56,465 bases of DNA, from positions 1 through 56,465 of the IMG/VR virus record IMGVR_UViG_3300032093_012241; one strand, written 5' to 3'. Under the pieces are notes generated by a model. It saw only the letters and a program-made list of their open reading frames with translations. It was not told the DNA's origin and did no database searches. The position numbers and the translations under genes are program-made. Positions 3,303 to 36,106 of the stretch are shown one piece after another (the stretch's first letter is position 1; each line of letters opens with the position of its first letter). The DNA comes from a virus.

Positions 3303-4676
3303 TTAGTGGGCATTATGTACGTAAAATTGCGAAGCATGTGACTCTGTATCAAATTGATCTTGGACATCTTTTGGTAATGTTTCAAATAATTTTGGATTAC
3401 CTCCCATTAAATTCAAAACAACTAAACTATCCAATTTACCTATTGATGCGGGTAATGATTTCAAACTTTTATTATTTGATAAAACCAACATAAATAAGTT
3501 TTTCAAGTTACCAATTTCATCGGGTAATGTTTTCACAATATTATCCAATTGTAACATTGTAAGATTTTTGAATTTTCCAATAGTTGCTGGTATATCATAG
3601 GCAATATTTTCATTTGATTTATTTGTAAATGAAAACTCGACTATATTATCAGGTAAATTTTGAATGAGTTCTTCAAATCCATATAAGGCGATATATTTTC
3701 CTGCAGTACTATTAGGGTAAACCACATCAACTTTATCACCACCTTTTGATGCCAATCCTTGTGCGAACTCAGGTTTGAAATATTCTTTTAGTTCAGATCC
3801 TTTTGTATTTAAAAATTCAACCAAATTAATAGATGAATCCAACCTATCCATAAATTGATCGGATTGAAAATGAAATTGGTATCTTTCTTGAGGTAACCCA
3901 GTTCTTGATCCTACACTGCCACCATCATTATTTGCTAAAATAACATAAAGAGGTCCGTCTTTGATATAACCTTTAAAATAATTAGAATTAGGTGGTGATG
4001 TACACCATCTTGATTCACCGTTTTTAAAATCATAATACCCACCATACCAAGATGCGGCTTCTTGTCCTAACTCATCAGATCTTTCTATTTTTACAATAGT
4101 ATAATCATTACCGACAAAATCTATTTTTGCCCCCGGATGTTTAAAACCTTCTCTTTCTTTTCTAATTTCTTTTTTTACTTCTGATTTTTTTAATTTTTGC
4201 TTAATCTTTTCTGGTAATTGAAAATTATTGATAAATGCAAAAAGACTAGACGGGGTGAATTTGTTTATATCGCGGTTCTCTATAGGAAAATATTGTTTGT
4301 ATTTCGTAAAATAAGTTAAATCATCTGTAAGTTTAAAAAGGTCTTCCATGAAAAGTTCTCTTGCCCTTCCAATATTTCCACCTTCATCTACTTGTGGGTT
4401 TTCAAAGTTTTTTAACATCCAATTTACATATTGGCCAGGTTGAACCTTTTTAAGATTTTCCAAACTTAAATCACTTGTGTCAAAATCACCTTGTGGTTTT
4501 TTAGTTGTTGGATCTGCAAATATAATTTGTGCTAAAGTATCCAAACCCATCAATGATGTTGGAGTACGTCCTGATTTATCTTTTTTTGGTTTCGCGTATT
4601 TGTCAATCAATACATCTAATCTAGTACTTTCCGAAAGTATTGTCTTTAATAAATTATTTAGTCTTATATTTTTCAT
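3303..4676 (-). CDS. WCT-domain protein with C-terminal leucine-rich repeats (paralogue 1)
   Basis: A 457-residue protein with two parts. Residues about 200-300 hold a block with SRWCTS at 222-227, then NYFKGY and GPLYVI, followed by RYQFHF and QFMDRLD. Residues about 365-445 are leucine-rich repeats of the short bacterial type, for example LTMLQLDNIVKTLPDEIGNL followed by a further repeat with SLPASIGKL. The neighbouring gene 4696-6519 has the same order of parts and a shared stretch GKYIALYGF before the repeats, so the two are tandem duplicates. The N-terminus MKNIRLNNLLKTILSES resembles start peptides of other genes here. A TAACTTTG element (4681-4688) ends 4 bases before the ATG, which suggests a leaderless transcript. 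Function is unknown; LRRs suggest protein binding. Confidence 0.7.
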   Translation of the reverse strand: MKNIRLNNLLKTILSESTRLDVLIDKYAKPKKDKSGRTPTSLMGLDTLAQIIFADPTTKKPQGDFDTSDLSLENLKKVQPGQYVNWMLKNFENPQVDEGGNIGRARELFMEDLFKLTDDLTYFTKYKQYFPIENRDINKFTPSSLFAFINNFQLPEKIKQKLKKSEVKKEIRKEREGFKHPGAKIDFVGNDYTIVKIERSDELGQEAASWYGGYYDFKNGESRWCTSPPNSNYFKGYIKDGPLYVILANNDGGSVGSRTGLPQERYQFHFQSDQFMDRLDSSINLVEFLNTKGSELKEYFKPEFAQGLASKGGDKVDVVYPNSTAGKYIALYGFEELIQNLPDNIVEFSFTNKSNENIAYDIPATIGKFKNLTMLQLDNIVKTLPDEIGNLKNLFMLVLSNNKSLKSLPASIGKLDSLVVLNLMGGNPKLFETLPKDVQDQFDTESHASQFYVHNAH

Positions 4677-4680
4677 CTTG

Positions 4681-4688
4681 CAAAGTTA
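4681..4688 (-). promoter_or_regulatory. Candidate leaderless promoter (-7 element) for the WCT-LRR gene
   Basis: Minus-strand TAACTTTG fits TAnnTTTG and ends 4 bases before the ATG at 4676, so transcription would start at or very near the start codon. No ideally spaced TTTG is seen upstream (one lies only about 12 bases away). Confidence 0.3.
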
Positions 4689-4695
4689 ATAAAAA

Positions 4696-6519
4696 TTAAT
4701 CAAATTTTATTCTGTAGAAAAAATTATCCCCCATATCTTCAAAATAGTCATAAAACCCTGCTGGGGGTTCAAAATCATTAGGCGCATTTCTTAAAATCAC
4801 CATATCCAAATTAGACATTTTCAAAACAGATGGTGGTAAAGTTTTAAGTTCCTGATTATTTTTCAGATTTAGAACAGTTAAATTTTTCAAATTATCTAAA
4901 TTTTCAGGTAAAGATGAAACAATATTCTCTAATACCAATGTTTCCAAATTGGTGAATTTTTGTGCAAAACTGCTTGGTAAATCATATTGTGGATAGTTCT
5001 TCTCTGAAGATATCAATTCAAAAAATCTAATATCATTTGATAAATTTTTAATTAATTCGTCAAAACCATAAAGGGCGATATACTTTCCTTCCTTTTGAGA
5101 AGGAATTTTTATTGTAACACTTTCACCTGATTGAAAATCTGTTGCGAACTTAACTTTCATTTCATCTTTTAATTTTGACATGCCAGGTAAATTAAGTATT
5201 GCGATATCAGAGTCAGATAATTGACTTAATGATTTTGTCTTTATAGTGTCAATTTTTTTACTAATGTAGTATTTTTTGGTCTCTGGATCAGCAACCGCAA
5301 TCATACCCGCAGTTAATTCATGTCCTAACGCTATATATTTTTTTCTTAAATTAACCGTCAGATTTTCAAATTGTTTATCTTCCAATCTTGGTGACCTTAT
5401 TTCAAGCCAAAGTTCAGCCATCTTCTCGTTACCCAAACTTTCTATCGGATTATCACCAACAGACGTATTTTTTACCTTTTTAATTAGATCTAGCTCTTCA
5501 CTTGTAAGTGGTTTTGGTTTAAATAAATTTTTAAGATTTTTTAACTTAGGTATTTTTTTTGTTATTTCATCCCAAGGTATATTTTGATGTCCAGAATATC
5601 TTCCTGAGTTTGAACCATCTGCTAATGACATATCTCCATCTGGGTCAACCAAAACAACAACCGCAAAATTTAAATCCGAAAAATCTTTATCTTGATCTAT
5701 AACGTAATATAAAGTCCTTTTGTTGTCTAATCTATAATTATAAAATAAGTTTGAACCTCCTTCACGGGACGTACACCAACTACGACCATTTTTAAGTCTA
5801 ATACATTGATCCCTTGTTTTTGGTTGGAAGATCATCAAATTATTTTCATTATAAACAACCTCAATGTCTTCAGTTGATGACTTTTCTTGATTCATTATAC
5901 CTTTGTTCATTCCATCAATATAATGTTCAAAATCCGCAAAACTTAATTCTGTCGGAGGTGGCATTGTCGTATATAATTCATCAAAATTGTCAATATACGC
6001 ACTTACATAATATTCTATTATGTCATCTGTTATATTTGTATTTTCTTTTTTAAACCTATCAATCAAAATTTCTCTAATATACTTAGGGTAAAGTTGATTT
6101 ATTAGTTTATAAAAATCTAAGAACTTATAGTTGGATGGGTCTTTTGCTTTACCAAATTTGGATTGTATTTCCAAAAATTTTCTAACCGCCTTTGCTAACT
6201 CAGTTCTTTCAAGTTTTTCTTCTTTCTTTTTGAAAGAATTGAAAAGATCTTTTTCTTTTTTCTGAAATCTTTTAGTTTCAATTAGTTTTTTTAAATCATA
6301 ATAATTGTAAGCTCCCAAATCTCTTTTATCTGCAGGCAATCCGTTTTTATATTTTTCAAATTCATCAATATACTCTGCGATTTTTTCAGTAGAATCAGTT
6401 GTTTGTTCTTTGAATTTAGCGACTAAGGTCGTTTTTAATTTATTAGATATTTCTAATATAACTGATTTTGGAGTTGATTTTTCAGTAATTACTGAAGATA
6501 AAACTTTAACTAATCTCAT
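4696..6519 (-). CDS. WCT-domain protein with C-terminal leucine-rich repeats (paralogue 2)
   Basis: A 607-residue paralogue of the gene at 3303-4676. The N-terminal 200 residues are helical and lysine-rich with coiled-coil character (KKEKDLFNSFKKKEEKLER). The shared block contains RSWCTS at 246-251, then a YRLDNKRTLYYVID stretch. After a stretch with PDGDMSLADGSNSGRYSG, the shared GKYIALYGF motif leads into leucine-rich repeats (for example LETLVLENIVSSLPENLDNL). The start peptide MRLVKVLSSVITEKS resembles those of other genes in the window. A TATTTAT element lies 19 bases upstream of the ATG. The Asp-rich stretch before the repeats could bind metal, but that is only a suggestion. Function unknown. 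Confidence 0.7.
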   Translation of the reverse strand: MRLVKVLSSVITEKSTPKSVILEISNKLKTTLVAKFKEQTTDSTEKIAEYIDEFEKYKNGLPADKRDLGAYNYYDLKKLIETKRFQKKEKDLFNSFKKKEEKLERTELAKAVRKFLEIQSKFGKAKDPSNYKFLDFYKLINQLYPKYIREILIDRFKKENTNITDDIIEYYVSAYIDNFDELYTTMPPPTELSFADFEHYIDGMNKGIMNQEKSSTEDIEVVYNENNLMIFQPKTRDQCIRLKNGRSWCTSREGGSNLFYNYRLDNKRTLYYVIDQDKDFSDLNFAVVVLVDPDGDMSLADGSNSGRYSGHQNIPWDEITKKIPKLKNLKNLFKPKPLTSEELDLIKKVKNTSVGDNPIESLGNEKMAELWLEIRSPRLEDKQFENLTVNLRKKYIALGHELTAGMIAVADPETKKYYISKKIDTIKTKSLSQLSDSDIAILNLPGMSKLKDEMKVKFATDFQSGESVTIKIPSQKEGKYIALYGFDELIKNLSNDIRFFELISSEKNYPQYDLPSSFAQKFTNLETLVLENIVSSLPENLDNLKNLTVLNLKNNQELKTLPPSVLKMSNLDMVILRNAPNDFEPPAGFYDYFEDMGDNFFYRIKFD

Positions 6520-6538
6520 TTTAATTTTGTTTTTGTTA

Positions 6539-6545
6539 ATAAATA
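6539..6545 (-). promoter_or_regulatory. TATTTAT element upstream of paralogue 2
   Basis: Minus-strand TATTTAT with 19 bases to the ATG at 6519. One of a set of similar elements before gene starts in this window; a candidate phage promoter core. Confidence 0.35.
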
Positions 6546-6564
6546 CTTATTAAACCGAAAAAAA

Positions 6565-7410
6565 TTAATAATTCATTATTAAAAGTTCCTCACCAATTGA
6601 TTGTTTGCCTCCTTTTTTTGCTCCTGCGGCTTTTGCAAATGACTTTGACTCCCAATGGTATTTGTCTTTTGGAAACCATTCCTCTAACTGTGGAAAATAA
6701 TAATATGACATAGAGAACTTCCCTTTCATAGATTTTAAGGTTTTTGCCAATCTTTCGTGATCCTTTAGTCCGAAGTCGTGATTAGAGTAATAATCCTCTG
6801 TTTTATAGTAAGGAGCGTCAACATAGACATAAAATTGTTCGTTATCATATTTTTTTATAAACTCTTCAAAATCCATATTTTCAACAACTTGAATTTTCTT
6901 AAACTTCTCAACCCATAAAGGATTTTTTAGTTTATCTCTGAATGTGAGATACTTAGATTTATATTTTCCTTTAAGGTCTATATATGAACTCTTTTCGGGT
7001 TTGCTTCCCGAGAATACTTGTGTTAATATGTAAGCGTACTGTGCTGCTATTTCATAATCAGGTTCTTCTGATACTTTGAACTCGTGATCAAATAACTTTG
7101 TTTGAAACGTAATGAACAAATCTTTATATTGAGTCGGTGTTGATGTCTGACCTTTTTGCTGACAAGGTATTTTCTCTATTTCAATCAATAGTTGTTCGGG
7201 GTTTTTAATACACCTGAAGAAATTTGCATTTAAAGGGTTAAAATCGTTATATATAACATTGGTTAATTCTGTGAACTCTTTGAGGTTCATATTGAAATAA
7301 CACCAAAACATTCCACCAAAACACTCGGAATATGTTTTAATGTCTTTAGGATAGTAGGGTACAATCCATTTACCGATCTTTGATTTGCCACCGATGTAAC
7401 TTAAAGCCAT
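6565..7410 (-). CDS. D12-class N6-adenine DNA methyltransferase (Dam-like)
   Basis: I take the ATG at 7410 (MALSYIGGKS) as start because D12 enzymes begin this way; an in-frame TTG at 7455 would add 15 residues. The 281-residue product shows the SAM/first motif YIGGKSKIGKWIV at 5-17, ECFGGMFW near 29-36, NDFNPLNANFF near 55-65, and the catalytic motif as DAPYY at 198-202. The usual D12 tetrapeptide is DPPY, so Ala replaces the first Pro; DAPY is tolerated in some amino-methyltransferases. Family function: methylation of adenine N6 in a short DNA site. In a phage this commonly protects the genome from host restriction. No restriction partner lies beside it. It is separate from the methyltransferase pair at 18926-20552. 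Confidence 0.85.
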   Translation of the reverse strand: MALSYIGGKSKIGKWIVPYYPKDIKTYSECFGGMFWCYFNMNLKEFTELTNVIYNDFNPLNANFFRCIKNPEQLLIEIEKIPCQQKGQTSTPTQYKDLFITFQTKLFDHEFKVSEEPDYEIAAQYAYILTQVFSGSKPEKSSYIDLKGKYKSKYLTFRDKLKNPLWVEKFKKIQVVENMDFEEFIKKYDNEQFYVYVDAPYYKTEDYYSNHDFGLKDHERLAKTLKSMKGKFSMSYYYFPQLEEWFPKDKYHWESKSFAKAAGAKKGGKQSIGEELLIMNY

Positions 7411-7464
7411 ATATTTTTTTTGTTTAAATATAGCATTTAATGTATGGTTTATCAATATATGACA

Positions 7465-7590
7465 TTAAAAATATGACTTCTTTGACTTGTTTCGGTCATA
7501 AGTCTTGCCAGAAGGTTTGACCTTTTGTATCATTTTTCGACGAATGATCTGTGCTACGTGACGTTCTGACAATCCTTCAAAAGTTTTCAT
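7465..7590 (-). CDS. Small basic protein, 41 aa
   Basis: A short reading frame from ATG 7590 to TAA 7465 fills an otherwise empty stretch. The product begins MKTFEGLSERHVAQIIRR and ends YDRNKSKKSYF; it is strongly basic. A TATTTATA element ends 3 bases before the ATG, as before other genes here. I know no family. Support is the element, the clean start and the lack of any other gene in the gap. Confidence 0.45.
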   Translation of the reverse strand: MKTFEGLSERHVAQIIRRKMIQKVKPSGKTYDRNKSKKSYF

Positions 7591-7593
7591 ATT

Positions 7594-7601
7594 TATAAAT
7601 A
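7594..7601 (-). promoter_or_regulatory. TATTTATA element upstream of the 41-aa gene
   Basis: Minus-strand TATTTATA, 3 bases before the ATG at 7590. If it is a -10-type element the transcript would be leaderless or the true start internal. Confidence 0.3.
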
Positions 7602-7680
7602 TTTCATTTTTTTTACAAAAGTATAAAAAATTATTTACCAAACAAAAAATGAAGTTATTTTTTATTAAAAATCAAAGACT

Positions 7681-7866
7681 TTGGAAACAATTTATGCTAA
7701 GGAGGTTATTACTGAAAACCCTCAAAAACCTTGTAACACTTGTAAAAAATCAAAATTAAACAAAAATATGACCGCAATCACAATTTTTGGAACATACATC
7801 TTATTTTCCGCAATATACGGAAATTATGTTATAATCAAAAATCTGATTGATTTTATTTTCGGGTAA
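7681..7866 (+). CDS. Small membrane protein with CxxC motif, 61 aa
   Basis: A plus-strand reading frame with TTG start at 7681 (an upstream in-frame TAA at 7666 excludes a longer form; the first ATG is codon 30). Residues 17-25 carry KPCNTCKKS, a CxxC pair followed by basic residues. Residues about 32-58 form one membrane helix ([20 protein letters not shown]). This layout, a CxxC plus one helix, is familiar to me from small hypothetical proteins of related Bacteroidota phages, but I cannot name a family. It converges on the DnaJ gene and overlaps its 3' end by 14 bases. Confidence 0.5.
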
Positions 7867-8776
7867 ATTTTACATTAAGTTTTATAAATAAGTCACCCTG
7901 AGCCGGAACTTTAAATCCTTTCTGAGGCACCCTAAGAGGTTTTGATGTGTCAAATTCTTTTGGTAACTTAACAGATAATAATCCATCTGGGTGTGGAACC
8001 TCAAAACTTTCGGATTGCAAATTTTCATAATCAAAAAACTTATTATAAACCAAATTTTGATCGTGCTTTTCAAAGTTATCAGATGGTTGGACATTAAATC
8101 TGATAATTAGATTACCATAAGTTATTTCATCAAAATCACCCCTACCTTGGATCATTATCATCTGACCTGTATCAACTCCGTGTGGTATTTTGATTGCCAG
8201 TTCCTCCATCACCGGATTAACGCCATTACCATTACAAGAATGACATTTGTTTAAAAAAGTGAATCCTTTTCCTGAGCAAGCATCGCAATCAGTTTGCATT
8301 ATTTGCATAAACATCGCAGTTCCAACTCTTTTGGTTATTACACCACTACCACCACATTTATTGCAAGTTTGCCTTTCACCACCTTTTCCCGAACAAGTTT
8401 CACATTTATGATTTCTATTAAAGACAATATTTTTTCTTTCTGATTTGAATGAATCCAAAACGGTTATATTAACATCAATTAACTTTTCTGAGACCGGTCT
8501 TTGTCTTTGGCGATTTCTGTTAAACATATTCATAACCTCCTCCATAGAAGGTCCGCCCATATTAAATAATGGATTGTTTTTTTGATTATCGTATTGACTT
8601 CTTTTATTTTCATCTCCCAAAACACCATAAGCCTCGGCGATTTCCTTAAATTTTTCCTCAGAACCACCTTTATCGGGGTGATGTTCAACGGCAAGTTTCC
8701 TATATGCCTTTTTTATTTCCTCTTGTGTTGCTTTTTCACCAACGCCCAATGTTTCATAGTAGTTTCCCTTTGACAT
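7853..8776 (-). CDS. dnaJ: DnaJ-type co-chaperone (J domain plus zinc-finger domain)
   Basis: A 307-residue type I J-protein. The J domain is residues 1-65 with the HPD motif at 33-35 (EHHPDKGG). A Met/Asn/Arg-rich linker replaces the usual Gly/Phe region. Four zinc-binding CxxCxGxG repeats follow: CETCSGKG (125), CNKCGGSG (138), CDACSGKG (164) and CHSCNGNG (178). The C-terminal substrate domain ends early, so the protein is shorter than the roughly 375 residues of bacterial DnaJ and probably lacks the dimerisation part. By family it stimulates the ATPase of DnaK and delivers clients. No DnaK or GrpE is in the window, so it presumably recruits the host chaperone, perhaps for virion assembly or replication. 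Confidence 0.92.
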
Positions 8777-8815
8777 AACGATTTACTTAACAGTTTTGAA
8801 TAATATTTTTTTTCA

Positions 8816-9478
8816 ATGGAGTTTAATTATATTGTTGTCCTTTTCAAAAATAGGACCAAACAAAAAGTCCTCAAAAAATTTAAGACATTAGAAAGAGTTA
8901 ATCAATACTTTAAAAAATTAGAGATAAAATCACATAAGGTTGTTTTTGAAAAACAATATGAAAATGGTCTTAAATGTGATTTTCAACTTGGTCTATTAAA
9001 GTTCGGTAAAGGCGGAGTAAGCTCATTGTATATGCAAGATTATTTGGGTCGTAATGTAAAAATACAATTTGAAGACCCTGATTATGTACTATTAAAAATG
9101 GTTGAGTATAGGGTTGAAGAACTAATTTTTGATGTGGATAAGAAAAAGAGGATTTCTGTGGATCAGTTTGTTAAACAATATCTTGATAAGTCTGGTATGA
9201 AAATGGTATCAAAAATTAATAACAAAGTTATTTTGCAATATGAAGAAAAGTTTAAAATATTTTCTTTAAAGACCGACGATGATGCTCAAAGGTTTGTTGA
9301 CAATATGTCAGAAGATTTTGTAACAAAAGGTAGAATGGACTGTATTTTTGTTCAGGACTGGACCACAGAACAAAGAAAATATCTATATGATTTTTTAGAT
9401 AAAAATGGAATACCTAAGAAGATACTTTATCGTCACTCAACGACATTTCCTCTAAAACACCATCAAGAAGAAAAATAA
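8816..9478 (+). CDS. Conserved hypothetical phage protein, 220 aa
   Basis: A plus-strand gene of 220 residues, starting 39 bases from the divergent DnaJ gene. The product is lysine-rich with alternating strands and helices (FNYIVVLFKNRTKQKVLKKF; VNQYFKKLEIKSHKVVFEKQ) and ends with TTEQRKYLYDFLDKNG and YRHSTTFPL. I believe similar proteins occur in related large phages but know no function. Its last 65 bases overlap the end of the opposite-strand gene 9414-9671. No catalytic motif is evident. Confidence 0.65.
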   Translation: MEFNYIVVLFKNRTKQKVLKKFKTLERVNQYFKKLEIKSHKVVFEKQYENGLKCDFQLGLLKFGKGGVSSLYMQDYLGRNVKIQFEDPDYVLLKMVEYRVEELIFDVDKKKRISVDQFVKQYLDKSGMKMVSKINNKVILQYEEKFKIFSLKTDDDAQRFVDNMSEDFVTKGRMDCIFVQDWTTEQRKYLYDFLDKNGIPKKILYRHSTTFPLKHHQEEK

Positions 9479-9671
9479 ACTCGGTACCTGAAATATCAAT
9501 TTTAAATTTTTCACCAGTAGGTTCTTTTCTTAATTCTATTTGTAACTTTCTAAATTCAGTTACAGGTAATTCAAATATTACAGTCGCCCTACCATTAAAT
9601 AAATTTTGAGAAGCGTCGGCAATTAACGCCATTTTTTCTAAAATCCCAATGTTTTTACTATCTTCTGCCAT
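9414..9671 (-). CDS. Conserved hypothetical protein, 85 aa
   Basis: An 85-residue product with the central stretch RATVIFELPVTEFRKLQIEL and the C-terminal strand GTEFIFLLDGVLEEM. No family recognised. It overlaps 9638-9835 at its start, which places it in the minus-strand small-gene run, and its last 65 bases overlap the converging gene 8816-9478. Both overlapping genes look coding in their own frames. Confidence 0.6.
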   Translation of the reverse strand: MAEDSKNIGILEKMALIADASQNLFNGRATVIFELPVTEFRKLQIELRKEPTGEKFKIDISGTEFIFLLDGVLEEMSLSDDKVSS

Positions 9672-9835
9672 AACGTAAGTTTTACCTCGTCTGAATTTGA
9701 TATTTCAGCTTTTCTAAATTTTCTTATTTCTTCTATAAATTTTTTCTTGTCTGCAAGAAGCTCCGCAGAATCTTTGAGTTTTTCTTTTTCAAGCCAATTT
9801 AATACTTTGGCTTTTTCATGGCTCTGTAAGTTCAT
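9638..9835 (-). CDS. Hypothetical protein, 65 aa
   Basis: A 65-residue, highly charged, helical product (HEKAKVLNWLEKEKLKDSAE; KKKFIEEIRKFRKAEI). No family recognised. It overlaps its upstream neighbour by 20 bases and its downstream neighbour by 34 bases, typical for coupled small phage genes. Confidence 0.5.
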   Translation of the reverse strand: MNLQSHEKAKVLNWLEKEKLKDSAELLADKKKFIEEIRKFRKAEISNSDEVKLTLWQKIVKTLGF

Positions 9836-11170: not shown

Positions 11171-12427
11171 TTATTGCGTCTTTTTATTATACCCTAATAA
11201 ATGATTCATTTTTTCAATTTCTTCATTTATAAGTTTTTCTTTTTTGTTTTCTGTTGATTCTAAAGCTTGGAATATTCTCGCAACATCTTTTTCTTCTTCG
11301 CTATCTTGTTTATAATCATAAACAGGTTGAGCTTGTCTATTGTAACCTTCTTTTTTCTTTAAAACAGATAACAAATTTCTTTTTCTGACTTTGTTTCTTC
11401 TTTTATTCACATCAGTTTCAACAGCATTTGCCCATTTAGGATTATTACCAGCTTTAGAGGATCCTTCCATATATTCATCCATTTTGGCTTCATTTGGATG
11501 TATTTCATCGTATGCTATGTTTTCTAACCCAGCTCCTGCGAAATTTTCTATATATTCATCAACTTCTTTTGTTGCTTTATAAGTTTTTTTATCCATTTTA
11601 GCCAATTCACCATTACCTTTTGGAAAAATTTTAGGTTCAAAATCAAAATCTCCTTTTGACCCATCTTTCAAATAATCTTTCATTTTTTTGGTAACAGATT
11701 TAATATAATCTTCGTTTTCTTTTTTTGATTTATCAAGATTTCTTCTTGTTGTACTTACACCAGGAGGATTAGATTGTTTTCTAATATTCTCTTTTTGTTC
11801 TTTAACAATCTTCTCAATCAAATCAATCATTTCGTTTTCAGTTAATTTAACTGATTCTTTTTTAGTTTTACCTCCATTTAACTTAACACCTCTACCAAGT
11901 AAAACATCTTTACGTGTTACTTTTCCATCACCACTTAGATCAGGAAATTTTTTACCTTCTTTAGTTTCAGATTTATGTTTTCTTAAAAGTTTGAAATCTT
12001 CTGAATCAATTTTGTTATTTTTATTTTTATCTAATTTTTTTTGGCCACCAAATAACTTTTCAGTAATTTCTGAACCTGCGTATTTTTGATGACTATCGCA
12101 AGCTTCCCTACTAAATTCTGGACTTTCTTCATCACAAACCTTTTTAAGTTTTTCAGCCTCGTCAAAATTAGCTTCATATATTGATTCCATTTTATAACCG
12201 CACTCAGAACATTCACCTTCCATCATTACACCTTCTCTGCATTGTTCGCATGTTTCACCTTCTTCAAATTCTTCTTCATCAAGGTTAATTTCATCAAAAC
12301 CTTCAAACTCATCTTCTTCAGTAACATCTGACTTGAGTTTATTGATAATTTCATCTGCCTTTTCATCTAATGATTCACGAAGAACTTTATTTACAACAGA
12401 ATCGATATAATTTTTAATTGTTTTCAT
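11171..12427 (-). CDS. Zinc-ribbon and double EF-hand protein, probable virion component
   Basis: A 418-residue acidic protein. Residues 60-76 carry two CxxC pairs (CEQC, CSEC), a zinc-ribbon pattern. Two calcium-loop motifs follow: DKNKNNKIDSED at 133-144 and DLSGDGKVTRKD at 163-174, each matching the 12-residue EF-hand/dockerin loop. Residues 193-212 read VKLTENEMIDLIEKIVKEQ, a motif that also occurs in diverged form at the start of 18261-18890. The N-terminus MKTIKNYIDSVVNKVLRES resembles capsid-targeting peptides of T4 internal proteins. A TATTTATA element lies 14 bases upstream. Placement beside other low-complexity acidic genes suggests a structural or internal head protein; this is inference. 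Confidence 0.6.
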   Translation of the reverse strand: MKTIKNYIDSVVNKVLRESLDEKADEIINKLKSDVTEEDEFEGFDEINLDEEEFEEGETCEQCREGVMMEGECSECGYKMESIYEANFDEAEKLKKVCDEESPEFSREACDSHQKYAGSEITEKLFGGQKKLDKNKNNKIDSEDFKLLRKHKSETKEGKKFPDLSGDGKVTRKDVLLGRGVKLNGGKTKKESVKLTENEMIDLIEKIVKEQKENIRKQSNPPGVSTTRRNLDKSKKENEDYIKSVTKKMKDYLKDGSKGDFDFEPKIFPKGNGELAKMDKKTYKATKEVDEYIENFAGAGLENIAYDEIHPNEAKMDEYMEGSSKAGNNPKWANAVETDVNKRRNKVRKRNLLSVLKKKEGYNRQAQPVYDYKQDSEEEKDVARIFQALESTENKKEKLINEEIEKMNHLLGYNKKTQ

Positions 12428-17706: not shown

Positions 17707-18204
17707 TTAGTTTGAGTATTTTTTCAAAATTGATTTTTCTTGTTCGCTCAATGAACTTACACCTTTTTCGTTTATTTTATCCAAAATATCGTCCAAAGAT
17801 AGATCTTTTATTTGGTTTTCACCATTTATTTTTTGTTTTTTCAGATCTTGTTTTGGGGATAGTTGGCTTATGATTGCTTCATCCTCTATATCATAATTAT
17901 CATCATTTTGATTTTCAGACATACCAAATATGTATTTGTGCAAATCCATAGGTAATGAAGTATAAACATTTTCTGTGAATGGGACAAGTAAATAAAGTGA
18001 TGTGACATCAATAAAAAGGTCATTTATAAATAAATCAACATCATCTTGTTCATCTGAACATTGAAATTTGATTATCAGTAGTTGATCACCGTAACTATAT
18101 TTGACATCTTCTTTTTCAGATATTATTGATACTGACTCTGCTAAATTTCTAACAAGATTTGATTTTCCTGTAAATTTTCCAAATGCGACCAAAAGATATT
18201 TCAT
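17707..18204 (-). CDS. Hypothetical protein with C-terminal LxEQEKxIL motif, 165 aa
   Basis: A 165-residue acidic protein. The N-terminus MKYLLVAFGKFTGKSNLV looks like a nucleotide-binding start (GKFTGKSN) but lacks a full P-loop. The C-terminus reads LDDILDKINEKGVSSLSEQE then KSILKKYS, which matches a short C-terminal motif I know from Bacteroidota rhomboid-type and other proteins. It is the first gene of the sigma-factor transcript, 3 bases upstream of it, and has the best Bacteroidota-type promoter in the window. A regulatory partner for the sigma factor is possible but unproven. Confidence 0.6.
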   Translation of the reverse strand: MKYLLVAFGKFTGKSNLVRNLAESVSIISEKEDVKYSYGDQLLIIKFQCSDEQDDVDLFINDLFIDVTSLYLLVPFTENVYTSLPMDLHKYIFGMSENQNDDNYDIEDEAIISQLSPKQDLKKQKINGENQIKDLSLDDILDKINEKGVSSLSEQEKSILKKYSN

Positions 18205-18221: not shown

Positions 18222-18254
18222 CAAAGGTAAGGATATTTATTGGATAAACACAAA
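18222..18254 (-). promoter_or_regulatory. Bacteroidota-type promoter for the sigma-factor operon
   Basis: On the minus strand TTTG (18254-18251), 21 bases, then TACCTTTG (18229-18222), matching the -33 TTTG and -7 TAnnTTTG elements of Bacteroidota housekeeping promoters. The ATG at 18204 follows after 17 bases. It overlaps the TATTTATT element that faces the opposite way, so the two may exclude each other. Confidence 0.6.
18234..18241 (+). promoter_or_regulatory. TATTTATT element upstream of 18261-18890
   Basis: Plus-strand TATTTATT, 19 bases before the ATG at 18261, inside the divergent minus-strand promoter. Confidence 0.4.
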
Positions 18255-18260
18255 TATTTT

Positions 18261-18890
18261 ATGAGAAAAATAGTTAAATTAACAAGAGAAGAATTAGTTG
18301 AACAGATTAGAAAATCTATCACTAAAAATTTAAACGAACATGATTATTCTTCTGACATTGAGAGATCCACTCAACCGAGAGAATTTCAAGTAAAAGACAT
18401 TTTCGGTAAAAAATATTCAAGGTATATACCAAATGATGTTATTCGTTATATGAGAAAAAACCCTTATTTGATATTTCAAAGGTTGTATGACATATACGGT
18501 GAAGAATCTTTCTCTTATTTAGAAAAGGCTAAAAGTCAAAAAGGTGGATCTTCCTCTTCAATTGATGAACCAATGATGGAGCAAGTTGATGATGAATTAG
18601 AAACAAATCCAATGATGGATAAATTAAAAGAGGTTGTTGAAAATGACGGTGAATTTGATGATTCAGACATTGAAGAAATTTTTAGTTTTACGGGACCCAA
18701 AAGATCGTTTAGAGGTTCAATATATATAGATGGTATTGTTCCTGAATCAGAGGATAAGGAATTTGATAGAAAAGTTGCGATGAAGGTAATGGAATTTTTT
18801 GCTAAAAGAACTCAAGCCGATCAATACGTTGGTGGTGTTGGTTTTAAACAAAGAAGTTTAACAAAACCTTTTGATACTGAAGATTTTTAA
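18261..18890 (+). CDS. Hypothetical protein with LTREEL start peptide, 209 aa
   Basis: I take ATG 18261 rather than the in-frame TTG 18240. The product starts MRKIVKLTREELVEQIRKS, close to the internal motif of the EF-hand protein (VKLTENEMIDLIEKIVKE) and to start peptides of other genes here. The middle is basic with FGKKYSRYIPNDVIRYMRKN, then a Gln/Ser/acidic linker, then a globular C-terminal domain (FRGSIYIDGIVPESEDKEFD; AMKVMEFFAKRTQADQYVGG). A virion internal protein is possible by the start-peptide likeness. The gene ends in a bidirectional terminator. Confidence 0.6.
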   Translation: MRKIVKLTREELVEQIRKSITKNLNEHDYSSDIERSTQPREFQVKDIFGKKYSRYIPNDVIRYMRKNPYLIFQRLYDIYGEESFSYLEKAKSQKGGSSSSIDEPMMEQVDDELETNPMMDKLKEVVENDGEFDDSDIEEIFSFTGPKRSFRGSIYIDGIVPESEDKEFDRKVAMKVMEFFAKRTQADQYVGGVGFKQRSLTKPFDTEDF

Positions 18891-18895
18891 AAAAT

Positions 18896-18922
18896 AAACC
18901 CCACCTTAGGATGGGGTTTTTT
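18896..18922. terminator. Bidirectional rho-independent terminator
   Basis: Stem AAACCCCA (18896-18903) and TGGGGTTT (18912-18919) with an 8-base loop and a T run on the plus side; the A run before it gives a T run on the minus side as well. It lies between the converging stops at 18890 and 18926. Confidence 0.85.
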
Positions 18923-18925
18923 GTT

Positions 18926-19348
18926 TTATTTAAATTCGTAATCGTAAGTTAATCCATCAGCACAAACTATATTTTTATTTAATATATCCCATATATCTGG
19001 TGTGGGATTAGGACCTGCTAATCTTTTTTTACACTCTTCTATATTGTCCTCCATTAAATCAACACCATAAGTTGTTGATAATGCCTCCTCTAAAGAACAA
19101 TCACTTTTTTCCATTTTTCTGATAACAATTTCACCTAAAAATTCACCATCACCACAACTATTATCTATAAATGTTTTAGTTGGGTCTGAGAAAAGTTGGG
19201 GATTTTCTTCTTCTAATTTATCCAACATTTCAGTTACTAAAAAGGGTGGGGTGAAAACTTCAGCCGTTTGTTTTATTCTGAGTTTGTCTCTATCAACACC
19301 TGACATGTAAATTCTGTTTCTTATGTGGTCTTTATAATTGTTCAACAT
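18926..19348 (-). CDS. Truncated methyltransferase-fold protein lacking the catalytic motif
   Basis: A 140-residue protein with the same opening as its neighbour 19332-20552 (QTAEVFTPPFLVTEMLDKL versus GEVFTPIGLVRMILDKI). It has a SAM-binding motif DNSCGDG (62-68), a second SAM-loop region YGVDLMEDNIEECKKRL and the stretch NIVCADGLTYDYEFK, where it stops. The NPPY/NPPF catalytic motif, normally just after this point, is absent. It may be a non-catalytic partner, a SAM sensor or a degraded copy. It overlaps its neighbour by 17 bases and ends in the terminator region. No full catalytic activity should be expected. Confidence 0.75.
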   Translation of the reverse strand: MLNNYKDHIRNRIYMSGVDRDKLRIKQTAEVFTPPFLVTEMLDKLEEENPQLFSDPTKTFIDNSCGDGEFLGEIVIRKMEKSDCSLEEALSTTYGVDLMEDNIEECKKRLAGPNPTPDIWDILNKNIVCADGLTYDYEFK

Positions 19349-20552
19349 TCTGATTAAAGTTCGGCTCGATTATGTTCCCTTCTTCATCGAGGAACTCTTT
19401 CCAAAAATTTTTACGAAATGTTGCCAATATTTTTCTGTTAAATCTATCCCCATTACTCATATAACAATATGTAATTAAATTCAAAAAAACATCACTTTCC
19501 ATAACTCGTTTTATTTCAGTTAAATTTTTTACATCATCAACTATGGCATAAGCGTATTGTGTTAATCCATATTTACCATTTTCATCAACAATTGGTGGTG
19601 ATGCCATACCATTAGACCAAATAACTTTTGGTATTCCAAAATGTCCTTTGTCTTTAGTATTACTATAAATAAGATTTATTATTTCACCTTTAATAATACT
19701 ATAAACACAAGGATAGATATGATTTTCTGTTTTTATTTTAGACATATATTTTCTTTGATGATGGTAAGAACTATTTGATAAGATTTGAACTCTTTCTTGA
19801 TTATCATTAGCAATTAAAGATGATATTGTACTAAAATTACCATTTGGGATGAATTGTAAATTTTTTATGTTAATTTTATCAATTTTACCATCAAATCCTT
19901 TTATGGTTGTTTTTAACAAATTATCCGATTCAATATTTTTGATAACATACCAATCAAAGGATGTTGTAGCATTAAAAATTTTCATTCCATCTTTTTCGTC
20001 ATGTATTTCAATATATTTAACTTGTTTGGATTTAATGAGTTCTTGTGTATTTTTAAATTCACCACTAACATTTCTCCAACCACTTGGGTGAATTAAACTT
20101 ACATAACCGCCATCTTTACAAATTTCAAATGATTTTTGGACAAATTTAGGCCACAAATTTTCAGCATTTGCCGCACCTGTTTCTTTTTGATACGGAGGAT
20201 TTCCCAATACTACATCAAATTTCATTTTAAATAATTCTTTCAAACTGTCTTTGTGAAAGACATTTTTATACCCCCTTCGTTTCAAATAATTAACATATTT
20301 TACACGAATATCATAACCGAAGACACGGGATTTTGCATCTTCCTCACTATAACCATAAATATCTACTAAACGTCTAACAATTTCAATTAAAAAAACTCCT
20401 TTACCCATACATGGGTCAATGAATATACTATTAGGATTAGTCCACACTTCATTTGGAATCTTATCAAGAATCATTCTAACCAATCCAATAGGTGTGAAAA
20501 CTTCCCCCTTAGACGGATTTGCTTTCCAATTCAAATATAGAGTATTTTTCAT
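19332..20552 (-). CDS. N6-adenine DNA methyltransferase (NPPY type)
   Basis: A 406-residue enzyme. Residues 16-31 read GEVFTPIGLVRMILDK, the SAM motif is DPCMGKG (46-52), and the catalytic motif is NPPY at 118-121 (FDVVLGNPPYQ). The C-terminal 230 residues would hold the target-recognition part. This architecture is that of gamma-type N6-adenine methyltransferases such as those in type II fused or type I systems. It starts 1 base after the stop of the helicase C-terminal gene, so it is in one transcript with the GIY-YIG/helicase pair. A restriction-modification-like unit is the simplest inference. The C-terminal half is unusually basic and shows no second catalytic motif. Confidence 0.88.
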   Translation of the reverse strand: MKNTLYLNWKANPSKGEVFTPIGLVRMILDKIPNEVWTNPNSIFIDPCMGKGVFLIEIVRRLVDIYGYSEEDAKSRVFGYDIRVKYVNYLKRRGYKNVFHKDSLKELFKMKFDVVLGNPPYQKETGAANAENLWPKFVQKSFEICKDGGYVSLIHPSGWRNVSGEFKNTQELIKSKQVKYIEIHDEKDGMKIFNATTSFDWYVIKNIESDNLLKTTIKGFDGKIDKINIKNLQFIPNGNFSTISSLIANDNQERVQILSNSSYHHQRKYMSKIKTENHIYPCVYSIIKGEIINLIYSNTKDKGHFGIPKVIWSNGMASPPIVDENGKYGLTQYAYAIVDDVKNLTEIKRVMESDVFLNLITYCYMSNGDRFNRKILATFRKNFWKEFLDEEGNIIEPNFNQNVEQL

Positions 20553-20553
20553 A

Positions 20554-21861
20554 TCACGAATATAAACTATTTTCTTGTTTATTGTAGGAAGTAATAATTG
20601 TGTTTAATAATTTATGAGAAACCCCACCCATCAAAATAATTTTTTTGACAGTTTTACAATCAACGCCGACCTCAAAAACAACCTCTTCTGAATATCCTTT
20701 TGATTCTATCATATCCAAAGTTTTGATTATATCATTTGATTCACAATTATTGATTTCAGAAATCTCAACAATATTTTCAACAATATTTTTTAAAAATTCT
20801 TTCAGTTTAAATCTAATATCTTCAACTTTTTTTTCTGATTTTTTATCTTCTTTGATTTTTTCAAAACTATCACTACGTATTATCGTATTAGAATCAATAC
20901 CAAATAATTTTTCTTTTTCTGTTTTAGATATTTCAATACCAAGTAACTCCTTAACCAAACCAGTATCGTTTATTATATTATCTACTTTAGATGATTCGGC
21001 GCCAATCTTAATCAAAGATGAAGAGTTAATTAATTTTTCAGCATATTCGTCTTTTTCTAATTCTATTTCTCCATGTGGCCCGTTTGTAAATAACTGTACT
21101 GAACGTAGTACACGATAAATACCGTCGTTTAAGTCATCAACTTCTACTTTTTCTGATTCATAAATAATATATTCATCAATAGGGTTATTATCTTCACGAT
21201 TTGGGTCTAATGATAAAGAAATAATATTACCAAAAATTTTTGGTTGTCCATCTAAAGTATTACCTGGTGTAAAACCTCGAGATATTTTTTGAATAGTTGT
21301 AAAATAGGAACCTCGGTCATACATGAGCATCACTGTATCAATTTCAGGTGCAGAAAGACTACGTGAACCCATTTCTTTACTAACAATAACAACTCTTTTA
21401 TTTTCTCTTTTTGCTCTTTTGATAAGACTTTTAACCTCGATTTCTACCTCACGGTTTGAGGTTTCATCACTATTAACTAATTTTACTAAATAACCGTTTC
21501 CTAATACTTGTTGGATTAACTCTACTAATTTTTTTTGTTGGATCTTGTCTTTTGTGTTTGCAAAAATTTGAGTTACAAGTCTTGGAGCAATTGTCATATC
21601 CAAATCTAAAAGACCGACCATTTCACCACTATAGAGTCCGAATAATGATTGAATTAATGTGGTTAGTACTCCTCTTGATTTATCAACATCCATTAATAAT
21701 TTGGTCCAATCGGTGCGGTATTCTTTTGGCACTGTGTTGAATCTTGAAACCGCTTTGTCAAGAGAAAGTCTCATAAAACGAGGAATTACAATATCCTCTA
21801 CAGATTTTTTACTTTGTTCTAAAGTGTATTTTTGTTTTAATCTATTTAAAATAGTTACCAT
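20554..21861 (-). CDS. C-terminal half of a split superfamily 2 helicase
   Basis: A 435-residue protein that holds only the second RecA-like domain. Motif IV is near VTQIFANTKDKIQQKKLVEL, motif V is RVVIVSKEMGSRSLSAPEID, and motif VI is QKISRGFTPG. No P-loop or DEAH box is present, so it cannot act alone as a helicase. Motifs I to III are in the gene just upstream, 21882-22823. The reading frame is -1 relative to that gene, with 20 bases between them and nine T before the ATG. The rest of the C-terminus is acidic and ends near ELLGIEISKTEKEKLFGI and a further 90 helical residues. It stops 1 base before the methyltransferase start. Confidence 0.82.
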   Translation of the reverse strand: MVTILNRLKQKYTLEQSKKSVEDIVIPRFMRLSLDKAVSRFNTVPKEYRTDWTKLLMDVDKSRGVLTTLIQSLFGLYSGEMVGLLDLDMTIAPRLVTQIFANTKDKIQQKKLVELIQQVLGNGYLVKLVNSDETSNREVEIEVKSLIKRAKRENKRVVIVSKEMGSRSLSAPEIDTVMLMYDRGSYFTTIQKISRGFTPGNTLDGQPKIFGNIISLSLDPNREDNNPIDEYIIYESEKVEVDDLNDGIYRVLRSVQLFTNGPHGEIELEKDEYAEKLINSSSLIKIGAESSKVDNIINDTGLVKELLGIEISKTEKEKLFGIDSNTIIRSDSFEKIKEDKKSEKKVEDIRFKLKEFLKNIVENIVEISEINNCESNDIIKTLDMIESKGYSEEVVFEVGVDCKTVKKIILMGGVSHKLLNTIITSYNKQENSLYS

Positions 21862-21881
21862 AAAAAAAAATTTGTTCTGAT

Positions 21882-22823
21882 TTAAATTAAATGATTTTGT
21901 ATTGGATGTTCACCATTTTTTACCATAAGCATATCGGTATATGACCAACGAATAATATTATCATCAATATGGTTTAAAGGTGATACTACTTTATCAATTG
22001 CGGTTCCTGTCATATAAACATTCAATCCGCATCCTAAAAAATTGATAAGGTCTTGGCTATTTTTTCGATGACAACCGAAATCAGACTCATCAATGAATGA
22101 TACCTTATCTTGTTTTGGTAAATCACTAATTGATTTGTATTTGGTCATAAACTCAGAGGAATGGAGTGAAATGGGTAATATAATCATTTTTTTTCCATAA
22201 TACTGTTTTATAACATCTTCTATGGGTTCATTCTCGCGAACAAAAATCATTTCTTTATAGAATGAATCATAAGTATAGAATTCTTTTTGGAAACTACTTA
22301 GAGCTGTTAAAACGTAAGCCGGTATTAAACATATTTTATATCCATAATCAATGAATAATGTTTTCATTAGGTCTAAAGACCATAAGGTTTTACCAAAACG
22401 TGGTGCCAACTCCAATGCAAACTCTTTAATTTCTTTAGTGTTTGATTCTAACTTTTCCTCGAAAACCATTTTTACGTAATCTTGATAAAATCTAGGATTG
22501 TAGGTTTTTGGTTCAGGGTTATCTCCCTCTGATATAATTTCTAGAAGTGCCGCAACTGCTTCTTCATCAGATTTGAAACCACCGAACCACTCTCTACCCC
22601 CTCCAGTAATTTCATGGACCCTATAATATCCTCTTTCCTCAAGTCCATTATGTACGTAATGGTCTGGAAATTTCGATTCTTTTTCAAAAATAAGTTGTAA
22701 CTTCTCTGAATTGCCAGTTTGTTGACCCCTAACCCTTTTTTCTGATTCCTTTAAAGTTTCACCGAACTTGTATAAACCTTTTTCTCGGTCAGATTCTGTG
22801 GTAAAGACATAATTTTTATTCAT
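21882..22823 (-). CDS. GIY-YIG-like (T5orf172-type) domain fused to the N-terminal half of an SF2 helicase
   Basis: A 313-residue protein. Residues 1-95 resemble the T5orf172 type of GIY-YIG nuclease: YVF near residue 5, GLYKFGETL (16-24), R30 in SEKRVRGQQTG, and REWF (77-80) with its conserved Glu. Residues 105-313 are the first RecA-like helicase domain: P-loop APRFGKTL (140-147), DEAH-like IDESDFG (244-250) and motif III MTGTA (271-275). The second domain is in the next gene. Family knowledge: GIY-YIG domains cut one strand of DNA near a target or junction, and SF2 helicases translocate on DNA. The pair plus a methyltransferase suggests a restriction-like or anti-DNA function. The nuclease assignment is moderate because the first GIY motif is weak. 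Confidence 0.68.
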   Translation of the reverse strand: MNKNYVFTTESDREKGLYKFGETLKESEKRVRGQQTGNSEKLQLIFEKESKFPDHYVHNGLEERGYYRVHEITGGGREWFGGFKSDEEAVAALLEIISEGDNPEPKTYNPRFYQDYVKMVFEEKLESNTKEIKEFALELAPRFGKTLWSLDLMKTLFIDYGYKICLIPAYVLTALSSFQKEFYTYDSFYKEMIFVRENEPIEDVIKQYYGKKMIILPISLHSSEFMTKYKSISDLPKQDKVSFIDESDFGCHRKNSQDLINFLGCGLNVYMTGTAIDKVVSPLNHIDDNIIRWSYTDMLMVKNGEHPIQNHLI

Positions 22824-34423: not shown

Positions 34424-36106
34424 TTATGGGGTAAAAACTTGACTGTTAAATGTTGTTGTCATTTGTGTTGATTGAGGAAGTCCTGTAACATTACAGCACG
34501 AACACCCTGATTTACTTGAACTCACGATCTGTACTTTATCTAATGAAACCACATAACATGGAATTCCAGGATGCGTTTGTCTATTAACTTGAACTATTAT
34601 TGACCCTGTTATAACGTCATTGCCTGATATTGTGATAGGTTGATAATTAGTTGTGGTTGCTGTAGTATATTCTAATACCCCTGGACCACAACTTAAAGCG
34701 GGTACAGGTGATGGTGTGAATGTTGAAACAGTATTTATTAAAGTTAATGGGGAACCATTTTTCAAAATTAAAGTGGTAGTAGTTCTTGATCCCTTTGTTG
34801 GGCTATTCGTTACTTTAAAGTCATTAACATGCGCTAAATTGAATGTTATTTGTGTTCCTGCAGGTAAAGTTGTTACTGGTTGTGACTGTGAATTCAATAC
34901 TTGTATTGTGAAATCCAGTCTTTGTACTTCAGAATTAGGTGTAGCAGATATCTGCGTAATATTTGATGTAATAGCAAGTGTATATATCGTTTGGGTAGGA
35001 GCTGGAGGTATAGTTACGGTTTGGGTAAGTGTAGTCAGTGTTGAGTCTTGTACCCAAATATTATAAGACCCACTAACTAAATTATTAAAAATTGGTGAAG
35101 TTTGTGTTGATGTCCCATTATTAATTGAATATAAAACGGGTTGTATGGCATTTATAGTATTTATCGTAATTGACCCTGAGTTTGGTTGCGCACTACAAAG
35201 TGGGGCTGATATAGTAGGATTTGATAGTGTCATAGTCGGGGCAACACAAGGGCCATTTGTAACTGTATATTGAGCCCCTGCATTATAACCCACAACAGTA
35301 TATGTTCCTAACGGTGATAAAGGATTTAGGTTATATATAAAATTACCAGCAAAAGTATTAAAATTAATTTGCCAAGATGGTTGTGGTGTAAGTGACCATT
35401 GTAATGTAAACGTATCTGAAGACCACGTAAATTTACCGTTAACAATGTTTTGAGTAGGATATAAAGGGTATTGGGTTGTAGTTTGAGTAGAAGGACCGCC
35501 TCCAATCTGACCCACAGATTCAATTGATGTCAAACATAATGTTTGTGTATTGACTGGAATAGGAGTCGGAGTTGGTGTTAAAGTAGGTGTTGGCGTAGGA
35601 GTTAATGGTGGTAATGAACATATAGTAGTTGCTGTAAAATCAGGGCCGCTATTTGGCCAATCAAAATCTGTAACAGTTATCGTATAATTTTGACCACGAA
35701 CCGCATTGGATAAAGTAGAGCCCAAATAACCGTTTGACCAAGAAATTTTATAAGGGGGGGTTCCCCCCGATACATTAATTGTAATACTTGAGTTATTTAT
35801 GTTGGGATTACAACTTATTTCCAAAGGTAATATTGTAACAATATCACATTCATTTGTTGCTGTTACTCTAATACAAGGATAGGTTTGATTACAATTCGAG
35901 CAATCTGAATACATTGTTAGTGTCGCTTGTGATGAAGAATATATCGCCGAATTAGGTAAAAGTTCAAAATTTTCGATTATTTCAGTACACCCTGAAAAAG
36001 AGTTTGGTATCTGTACATAAAAATAATCTCCAATAGGAAGTGACATAAAATTTACGATTGTAAATGTTATATTAGGATCACAACATGATTTAAAATATAC
36101 TTGCAT
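34424..36106 (-). CDS. Modular adhesin-like tail protein with TP linker and homopolymer tract, 560 aa
   Basis: A 560-residue protein of separable modules. Residues 1-85 are a Cys module (SCCDPNITF ... CSNCNQTYPC) that matches the second half of 36145-36885. Next is a SprB-like unit with SGGTPPYKISWSNGYLGS; its DNA holds a G7/C6 tract at 35754-35768. A TPTPTPTLTPTPTPIP linker follows, then a strand-rich segment, then a second block (TLAITSNITQISATPNSEVQ) and a Cys-rich end (SSSKSGCSCCNVTGLPQSTQ). The order suggests an elongated surface protein. Function as a host-binding tail protein is inferred from these modules. Confidence 0.65.
   Translation of the reverse strand: MQVYFKSCCDPNITFTIVNFMSLPIGDYFYVQIPNSFSGCTEIIENFELLPNSAIYSSSQATLTMYSDCSNCNQTYPCIRVTATNECDIVTILPLEISCNPNINNSSITINVSGGTPPYKISWSNGYLGSTLSNAVRGQNYTITVTDFDWPNSGPDFTATTICSLPPLTPTPTPTLTPTPTPIPVNTQTLCLTSIESVGQIGGGPSTQTTTQYPLYPTQNIVNGKFTWSSDTFTLQWSLTPQPSWQINFNTFAGNFIYNLNPLSPLGTYTVVGYNAGAQYTVTNGPCVAPTMTLSNPTISAPLCSAQPNSGSITINTINAIQPVLYSINNGTSTQTSPIFNNLVSGSYNIWVQDSTLTTLTQTVTIPPAPTQTIYTLAITSNITQISATPNSEVQRLDFTIQVLNSQSQPVTTLPAGTQITFNLAHVNDFKVTNSPTKGSRTTTTLILKNGSPLTLINTVSTFTPSPVPALSCGPGVLEYTTATTTNYQPITISGNDVITGSIIVQVNRQTHPGIPCYVVSLDKVQIVSSSKSGCSCCNVTGLPQSTQMTTTFNSQVFTP
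35754..35768. repeat. G7-TT-C6 homopolymer tract in a tail adhesin gene
   Basis: Plus strand GGGGGGG (35754-35760), TT, CCCCCC (35763-35768). On the coding strand it encodes Ser-Gly-Gly-Thr-Pro-Pro in a SprB-like unit. Such tracts are rare in this AT-rich DNA, and they can slip in replication or form a tight hairpin. Confidence 0.75.

Follow-up and report, generated by a model that had tools for sequence, protein, structure and literature searches.

Our study describes a cassette of four genes in IMG/VR virus record IMGVR_UViG_3300032093_012241 (the window, meaning the whole stretch of 56,465 bases that was analysed), which is likely to encode a phage-borne, ATP-dependent restriction-modification system working like a Type ISP enzyme taken apart. 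The cassette consists of four open reading frames (ORFs) on the minus strand in the order A-B-C-D: A (21882-22823, 313 amino acids), B (20554-21861, 435 amino acids), C (19332-20552, 406 amino acids) and D (18926-19348, 140 amino acids). Gaps of 20 and 1 nucleotides separate A from B and B from C, C and D overlap by 17 nucleotides, and the unit ends at a terminator (18896-18919), as an initial annotation made from the sequence had already described. The same order recurs in dozens of distinct viral contigs, so the arrangement is not due to chance. The features of the cassette, with the evidence for each, are as follows.

22530-22823 (-): A residues 1-98, T5orf172/GIY-YIG-family nuclease-like domain (homologue profiles, 38-sequence alignment, AF2/BFVD fold)
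21882-22529 (-): A residues 99-313, superfamily 2 (SF2) helicase lobe 1 (ResIII in 5 of 7 homologues; conserved motifs)
21076-21861 (-): B residues 1-262, SF2 helicase lobe 2 (sub-threshold Pfam Helicase_C match, 0.0065; alignment; joined to lobe 1 in homologues with fused genes)
20554-21075 (-): B residues 263-435, predicted all-helical region, in the position of the Type ISP coupler (AF2 model of L007; conserved)
20223-20552 (-): C residues 1-110, S-adenosylmethionine (SAM)-binding half with motif X (FTP) and motif I (DPCMGKG) (N6_Mtase 5e-9, residues 13-129)
20013-20222 (-): C residues 111-180, catalytic half with NPPY, N6-adenine type (Eco57I 9e-15, residues 95-181)
19332-20012 (-): C residues 181-406, variable region, probable target recognition domain (identity drop; exchange between tandem C copies)
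18926-19348 (-): D, free-standing SAM-binding half of an N6-adenine methyltransferase (phrog_4376 4.5e-18; motifs X and I, stops before NPPY)

In the mechanism that we propose, C, with its C-terminal target recognition domain, and its SAM-binding partner D would methylate adenines at a specific site in phage DNA, while A and B would together make up an SF2 motor, helical coupler included, that docks on C. Where a site is unmethylated, this motor would translocate and the GIY-YIG domain of A would cut, and the DNA destroyed would be foreign or host DNA without the mark. We regard as evenly balanced the more specific proposal that phages hold a restriction-modification lineage of their own, in which D is a shared separate subunit serving exchangeable catalytic-plus-recognition chains, on a repeatedly split and re-fused GIY-YIG translocase that also pairs with Mom or Dam.

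Domain order and conserved linkage

It has been reported that Type ISP enzymes are composed of an Mrr-family nuclease, two RecA cores, an all-helical coupler, a gamma-class N6-adenine methyltransferase and a C-terminal target recognition domain (PMC4872093). The initial annotation did not recognise the order of the four genes as that of a described type; in our comparison it equals the six-domain order of the Type ISP enzymes LlaGI and LlaBIII (PMC4872093). In a fused A-B-C homologue of 1144 amino acids (L007; the prefix L denotes the loci of our survey), the AlphaFold2 (AF2) model, with a pLDDT of 71, has the Type ISP domain order and consists of nothing but helices between about residues 576 and 745. 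A Foldseek search with this model returned LlaBIII (4xqk) as the top match (E=9e-17, 1078 columns), and the matches below it were mostly motors (SNF2-type remodellers and others) or the methyltransferase CamA alone.

Relatives were sought by scanning IMG/VR, a pool of mostly uncultured contigs, with A, B and D, and near-identical contigs were merged by helicase sequence. The final census comprises 65 distinct helicase-bearing loci including the window (L015), six of which are truncated and 59 of which have usable context. Both C and D are present at 45 of the 59 (among them L043, whose D lies just past the first locus and is reached through L207), C without D at four, a gene that we call E together with a Mom or Dam gene at nine, and neither at one (L124). 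Hence the linkage of a nuclease with a modification enzyme by which restriction-modification systems are recognised is present at 45/59 loci through C and D and at 9/59 through E and Mom or Dam. The initial annotation had proposed such a neighbourhood survey and named homologues mostly without methyltransferases as counter-evidence; because A and B are almost always linked to a modification gene, this is not what was found. The restriction-like reading offered in that annotation is thus supported, as a proposal, by the linkage to modification genes and by the near-full-length Type ISP match of the fused form.

In the helicase tree the nine E loci group on one side of a branch recovered in 86% of bootstrap trees. 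In this second branch the conserved gene E (about 290 amino acids, no assigned family) is followed by a Mom-family gene at eight loci (L035, L037, L039, L040, L041, L042, L045 and L047) and by a Dam-type gene in L038. The Mom assignment was tested in two loci (Pfam Mom, 2e-36 and 2e-39), and the Dam-type match of L038 is 2e-20. A profile comparison of E with C (hhalign probability 12%, E 0.0024) hints at a kinship that we do not claim.

Among the closest relatives the arrangement differs in nothing but the fusion of adjacent genes: four separate chains in the window, L025 and Synechococcus phage S-CAM7; A and B fused in L002; B and C fused in L006; and A, B and C fused in L007, where D is still separate and the neighbours resemble those of the window (SbcC upstream and a 165-amino-acid relative downstream). 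In two human gut phages (L022 and L024, the latter of the Heliusvirales) the order is D, a complete methyltransferase and a protein of about 970 amino acids with weak A/B profile matches; to judge from these matches, this is a rearranged version of the cassette. As a separate observation, a further SF2 helicase of the same family (about 400 amino acids) lies within a few kilobases of the cassette or of D in L016, L017, L031, L035, L037-L039, L041, L042 and L052.

The methyltransferase and its exchanged variable region

The third gene had been noted for its DPCMGKG and NPPY motifs, and both were located in C (positions 46 and 118) together with FTP at position 19. The resulting order X, I, IV is that of gamma-class N6-adenine methyltransferases, and the catalytic half matches the solved CamA and BrxX enzymes; judged by these motifs, C is an N6-adenine methyltransferase complete in itself, and its C-terminus is variable. 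Compared with its four closest relatives, C of the window is 69-72% identical in the SAM half and 27-48% in the variable region, and the latter is 36% identical to that of an NPPY-only chain of huge phage LR756508.

Tandem copies of C show how this region varies. L043 carries five C genes in a row (3311-9817), whose DNA is mostly about 92% identical in the 5' half (81-95% per 60-column block, the upstream 150 bp included), drops to about 33-53% across the variable region and returns to 74-84% downstream. In L075 three C genes stand between A and B and a fourth follows B. L085 and L078 have one C variable region in common (75%) and first copies that are 28% identical. Near-identical catalytic halves joined to unrelated C-termini point to a diversification of specificity; the C-terminal region thus behaves like target recognition domains and is probably one. 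This exchange favours variable opponents, such as other phages and plasmids, over a constant target. It may be added that the L043 array (L207:3866-6236) is closed by D and then by a 229-amino-acid protein with a GLEVKTR motif, which could be a PD-(D/E)XK nuclease.

A free-standing SAM-binding half

The initial annotation had credited the fourth gene with the SAM site only, and this proved correct: D has motifs X (FTP, position 32) and I (DNSCGDG, position 62) and no NPPY, a motif found in none of the 115 D ORFs inspected. The D profile matches residues 11-107 of the N6-adenine methyltransferase M.BseCI, which is its SAM-binding half, and D is the best conserved protein of the cassette (74-83% to close relatives). 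In a census of D drawn from its best 80 matches, 62 distinct loci were obtained, seven truncated and 55 scored. An NPPY chain directly adjoins D at 53 of these 55, and in 25 of the 53 chains no SAM half was found by profiles, a result that depends on the profile-based thresholds of the census and on inspection. Some of these chains start at the catalytic strand (MKFDxxxGNPPY, for example in L177, L179, L199, L206, PSSM2_036 of Prochlorococcus phage P-SSM2 and L088), and others keep a degraded SAM half (L188 and L172). In Aeromonas phage Aeh1 a single protein (Aeh1p090) joins the NPPY half and D in permuted order; in Klebsiella phage KpV477 the NPPY half carries a fused GIY-YIG domain and D lies two genes further on, an arrangement to which that of S-SKS1 is comparable. 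On the D tree, with the labels intact and lost assigned by hand, supported branches force at least five changes between an intact and a missing SAM half. At the four loci with C and no D, the NPPY motif of C is altered in three (NPAH in L098, NPNF in L130 and APPF in L086).

Given the NPPY neighbour at 53 of 55 loci and the 25 chains in which no SAM half is recognisable, D most likely acts in trans as a cofactor subunit that would give its SAM site to the catalytic chain. C of the window keeps a SAM site of its own, and for this case we infer that D replaces or assists it, which is the least certain step of our proposal. One could suppose instead that D has no part in the methyltransferase and lies next to C incidentally, acting as a decoy or as a regulator such as a SAM-sensing operon repressor. 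On paper D is indeed unneeded in the window and at about half of the loci, where C has its own SAM half; we nevertheless consider this explanation improbable, because each of the 25 incomplete NPPY chains stands beside D and several begin at the catalytic strand, because Aeh1 fuses the two halves in permuted order, and because C has an altered NPPY at three of the four loci without D. The possibility that D is a decaying copy of C was rejected: it has the highest conservation in the cassette, and the C halves and D are largely separate in a tree that is itself poorly resolved, with three changes between the groups. It is important to note that duplication intermediates of permuted methyltransferases have been published before (PMC3320104), and for this reason such circular-permutation intermediates are not claimed here as new in themselves.

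Two further loci with D deserve mention. In Prevotella phage Lak-B7 (L019:7950-8500) a D homologue forms one long frame if TAG is read as glutamine, compared with a piece of only 60 amino acids in the standard code. In Synechococcus phage ACG-2014f (L017:5986-9933) D occurs together with a protein of about 200 amino acids with a nuclease-like motif, an NPPY methyltransferase with a degraded motif I and an SF2 helicase; this cluster is possibly a related system with another nuclease.

A nuclease-like domain on a split motor

Of the helicase motifs that the initial annotation had assigned to the first two genes, I to III were located in A (APRFGKT, the Walker A motif, at 140; DESD at 245; TGT at 272) and VI in B (QKISR at 191), so that an SF2 ATPase with both its N-core and its C-core is present. 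Both lobes lie on one chain at 33 of 61 scored loci and on two chains at 28, and supported branches of the helicase tree force at least seven changes between the split and the fused state. A sequencing error as the origin of the split was rejected, given that L001, L025 and L006 are divided between the same lobes and that 28 of the 61 loci are split.

The T5orf172/GIY-YIG-like character proposed for the N-terminus of A is borne out by its homologues and by its predicted fold. In the window the Pfam matches of A lie below the curated cut-offs (T5orf172, E 0.012; ResIII, 0.015), and the best scores among seven homologues are 3.6e-6 and 4e-4, respectively. The T5orf172 profile was not found in four related phage records, which indicates that the Pfam profile is insensitive to this branch. 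A sequence search of solved structures returned nothing for A and chance-level matches only for B, and for the A N-terminal domain Foldseek retrieved no PDB entry at a significant score, with the GIY-YIG proteins At-HIGLE and Slx1 appearing only at E>1. For this reason a viral structure library, BFVD, was used instead, in which the AF2 model of A residues 1-105 (pLDDT 83) matches T5orf172/GIY-YIG viral models (E 3e-4 to 1e-3, TM about 0.6). On the profile in homologues and the predicted fold together, the assignment of the A N-terminus to the T5orf172/GIY-YIG superfamily holds.

At the level of residues the initial annotation needs a correction, at the two tyrosines. In 38 aligned sequences K19, G21 and D54 are present in all 38, E78 in 34 and R30 in 28. 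The position of the YIG tyrosine is occupied in all 38 by K19, a lysine known at this position from R.Hpy188I (PMC2630997), and the GIY tyrosine at position 7, present in 36 of the 38, is a phenylalanine (F7) in the window copy.

Several points weigh against the restriction reading. With F7 in the window, and with an A domain in S-CAM7 that is degraded and lacks the YIG pattern, some of the nucleases may be weak or dead, and cleavage by the window copy is itself open to doubt. The window's C is complete by itself with its own motif I, and D is possibly dispensable for methylation there. The linkage is weakened by the four loci that have C without D and by L124, which has neither. As for the Type ISP comparison, the global TM-score between L007 and LlaBIII is low (0.25) and the placement of domains in the model is uncertain; the model is of modest confidence, with the variable region poorly predicted and its fold unresolved.

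The doubts about the nuclease are also what recommends a reading without restriction, in which the role of C and D is to shield phage DNA from restriction by the host and the A/B motor, its GIY-YIG domain being weak or dead, aids methylation, replication or recombination. F7 and the degraded domain of S-CAM7 speak for it, as do the SbcC/SbcD genes that adjoin the cassette and the recombination role that Iyer et al. 2021 (PMC7824862) propose for phage T5orf172 proteins. We consider this reading unlikely, since K19, G21 and D54 are invariant and E78 nearly so, since the motor-nuclease module pairs with a methyltransferase, Mom or Dam as expected of a restriction partner and not of a recombinase, and since the exchange of recognition regions is unexpected for a general recombination factor.

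Distribution among viruses and the proposed DNA target

A search with two alignments of 84,980 prokaryotic genomes gave zero relatives for alignment A1 and one for A9, on a 6.9-kb metagenome-assembled contig, through a pattern pre-filter that can miss distant relatives; a scan of plasmids gave no relatives. Among 50,697 phage records, tblastn matched the helicase only in S-CAM7 and in huge phage LR756508, and phage MA10 (L023) and the two gut phages L022 and L024 were reached through D. This near-absence from prokaryotic genomes and plasmids, set against the many viral relatives, points to a system strongly biased to viruses and probably virus-specific. Its occurrence in dozens of uncultured phages and in almost no bacterial genome suggests that it serves phages to tag their DNA and to destroy DNA that lacks the tag.

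Which DNA would be destroyed is where a variant of the restriction reading arises. The same machine might serve mainly to degrade the unmethylated host chromosome early in infection, with the exclusion of other phages as a secondary effect; this is a sub-case that differs in the target only. The carrier phages have their own DNA-metabolism and sigma-factor genes, near-absence from sequenced prokaryotes is what one would see for a tool of the infection phase, and an attack on host or superinfecting DNA is proposed for Mom-endonuclease fusions in PMC7824862. Even so, the exchange and multiplication of recognition regions would fit variable competitors better than a constant host chromosome, and we hold host degradation as the main task to be rather unlikely, though the most plausible of the alternatives.

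Neighbourhood of the cassette

An SbcC-type gene lies upstream of the cassette and a sigma factor gene farther downstream. The terminator at the end of the cassette has a score on either strand, which means that the convergent ORF 18240-18890 shares it.

18896-18919 (both strands): bidirectional intrinsic terminator, hairpin AAACCCCATCCTAAGGTGGGGTTT, then ATTTTTT

Elsewhere, the window carries another adenine methyltransferase, which belongs to the D12/Dam class and is not linked to the cassette (6565-7455, minus strand; Pfam 1.5e-17, phrog_56 6.8e-36). Matches to SprB repeats and dockerin (34424-36106 and 11171-12427) and to DUF6576 (17707-18204) may hint at a Bacteroidota host.

Significance

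If the proposed reading is true, phages possess their own lineage of restriction systems. It would offer a motor divided at the boundary of its lobes, together with a natural two-part N6-adenine methyltransferase that could be reassembled from one shared cofactor subunit and recognition chains that can be swapped. The relatives would form a series from complete through duplicated to split or permuted methyltransferases, making the evolution of permuted methyltransferases directly testable. A function would be suggested for the widespread phage family phrog_4376, which is listed without one, and N6-methyladenine would be predicted in cultured phages such as S-CAM7, P-SSM2, Aeh1 and KpV477.

Comparison with known systems

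In the literature searched, which left out most subscription papers, there is no description of this cassette or of the role of D. Applied to the four genes, PADLOC found nothing in A or B, and no MADS or BREX partner genes there; its matches are confined to the methyltransferase parts C and D (mad2, MTase_II and a weak PglX).

Phage-borne modification enzymes joined to nucleases have precedents. In the part of Iyer et al. 2021 consulted (PMC7824862), Mom-endonuclease fusions of jumbo phages are described and permuted adenine methylases are noted; that part describes neither a cassette with a GIY-YIG-SF2 translocase nor a free-standing SAM-half subunit, and in the second branch of our cassette Mom is a separate gene beside the translocase. 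The Odn protein of phage ICP1 likewise places a T5orf172 domain of the GIY-YIG superfamily in the service of phage DNA conflict (PMC8263062), but it has a RepA-like DNA-binding domain, and the part of that source consulted describes neither a motor nor a methyltransferase for it.

As in M.AquI and M.EcoHK31I (PMC3404938), one methyltransferase activity would come from two polypeptides. Those are cytosine-5 enzymes broken on the motif IX-X side, whereas the cassette has an N6-adenine enzyme broken between the SAM half and the NPPY half, and many of its complete chains carry the extra half too. The CglI-type ATP-dependent restriction enzymes also have a nuclease and a helicase-like ATPase on separate chains (PMC5737866); in these enzymes the complete ATPase occupies one chain and the nuclease a second, while the cassette fuses the nuclease to one lobe of the motor.

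With Type ISP enzymes the cassette shares the linear order of nuclease, two RecA lobes, predicted helical region, gamma-class N6-adenine methyltransferase and probable C-terminal recognition region, and in both a conserved front part precedes a variable back part (PMC4872093). Type ISP enzymes are further marked by translocation driven by ATP and by cleavage that depends on collision. It differs in that Type ISP enzymes are single polypeptides, compared with four genes in the window and a motor often split between its lobes; in that its nuclease is of the GIY-YIG/T5orf172 type and not an Mrr-family PD-(D/E)XK enzyme; in that A and B have no significant sequence match to solved chains; and in that it has the extra SAM-half subunit D and is found in viruses. 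Because the type of nuclease and the number of chains differ, we infer a system that works like Type ISP enzymes and do not file it as a member of them.

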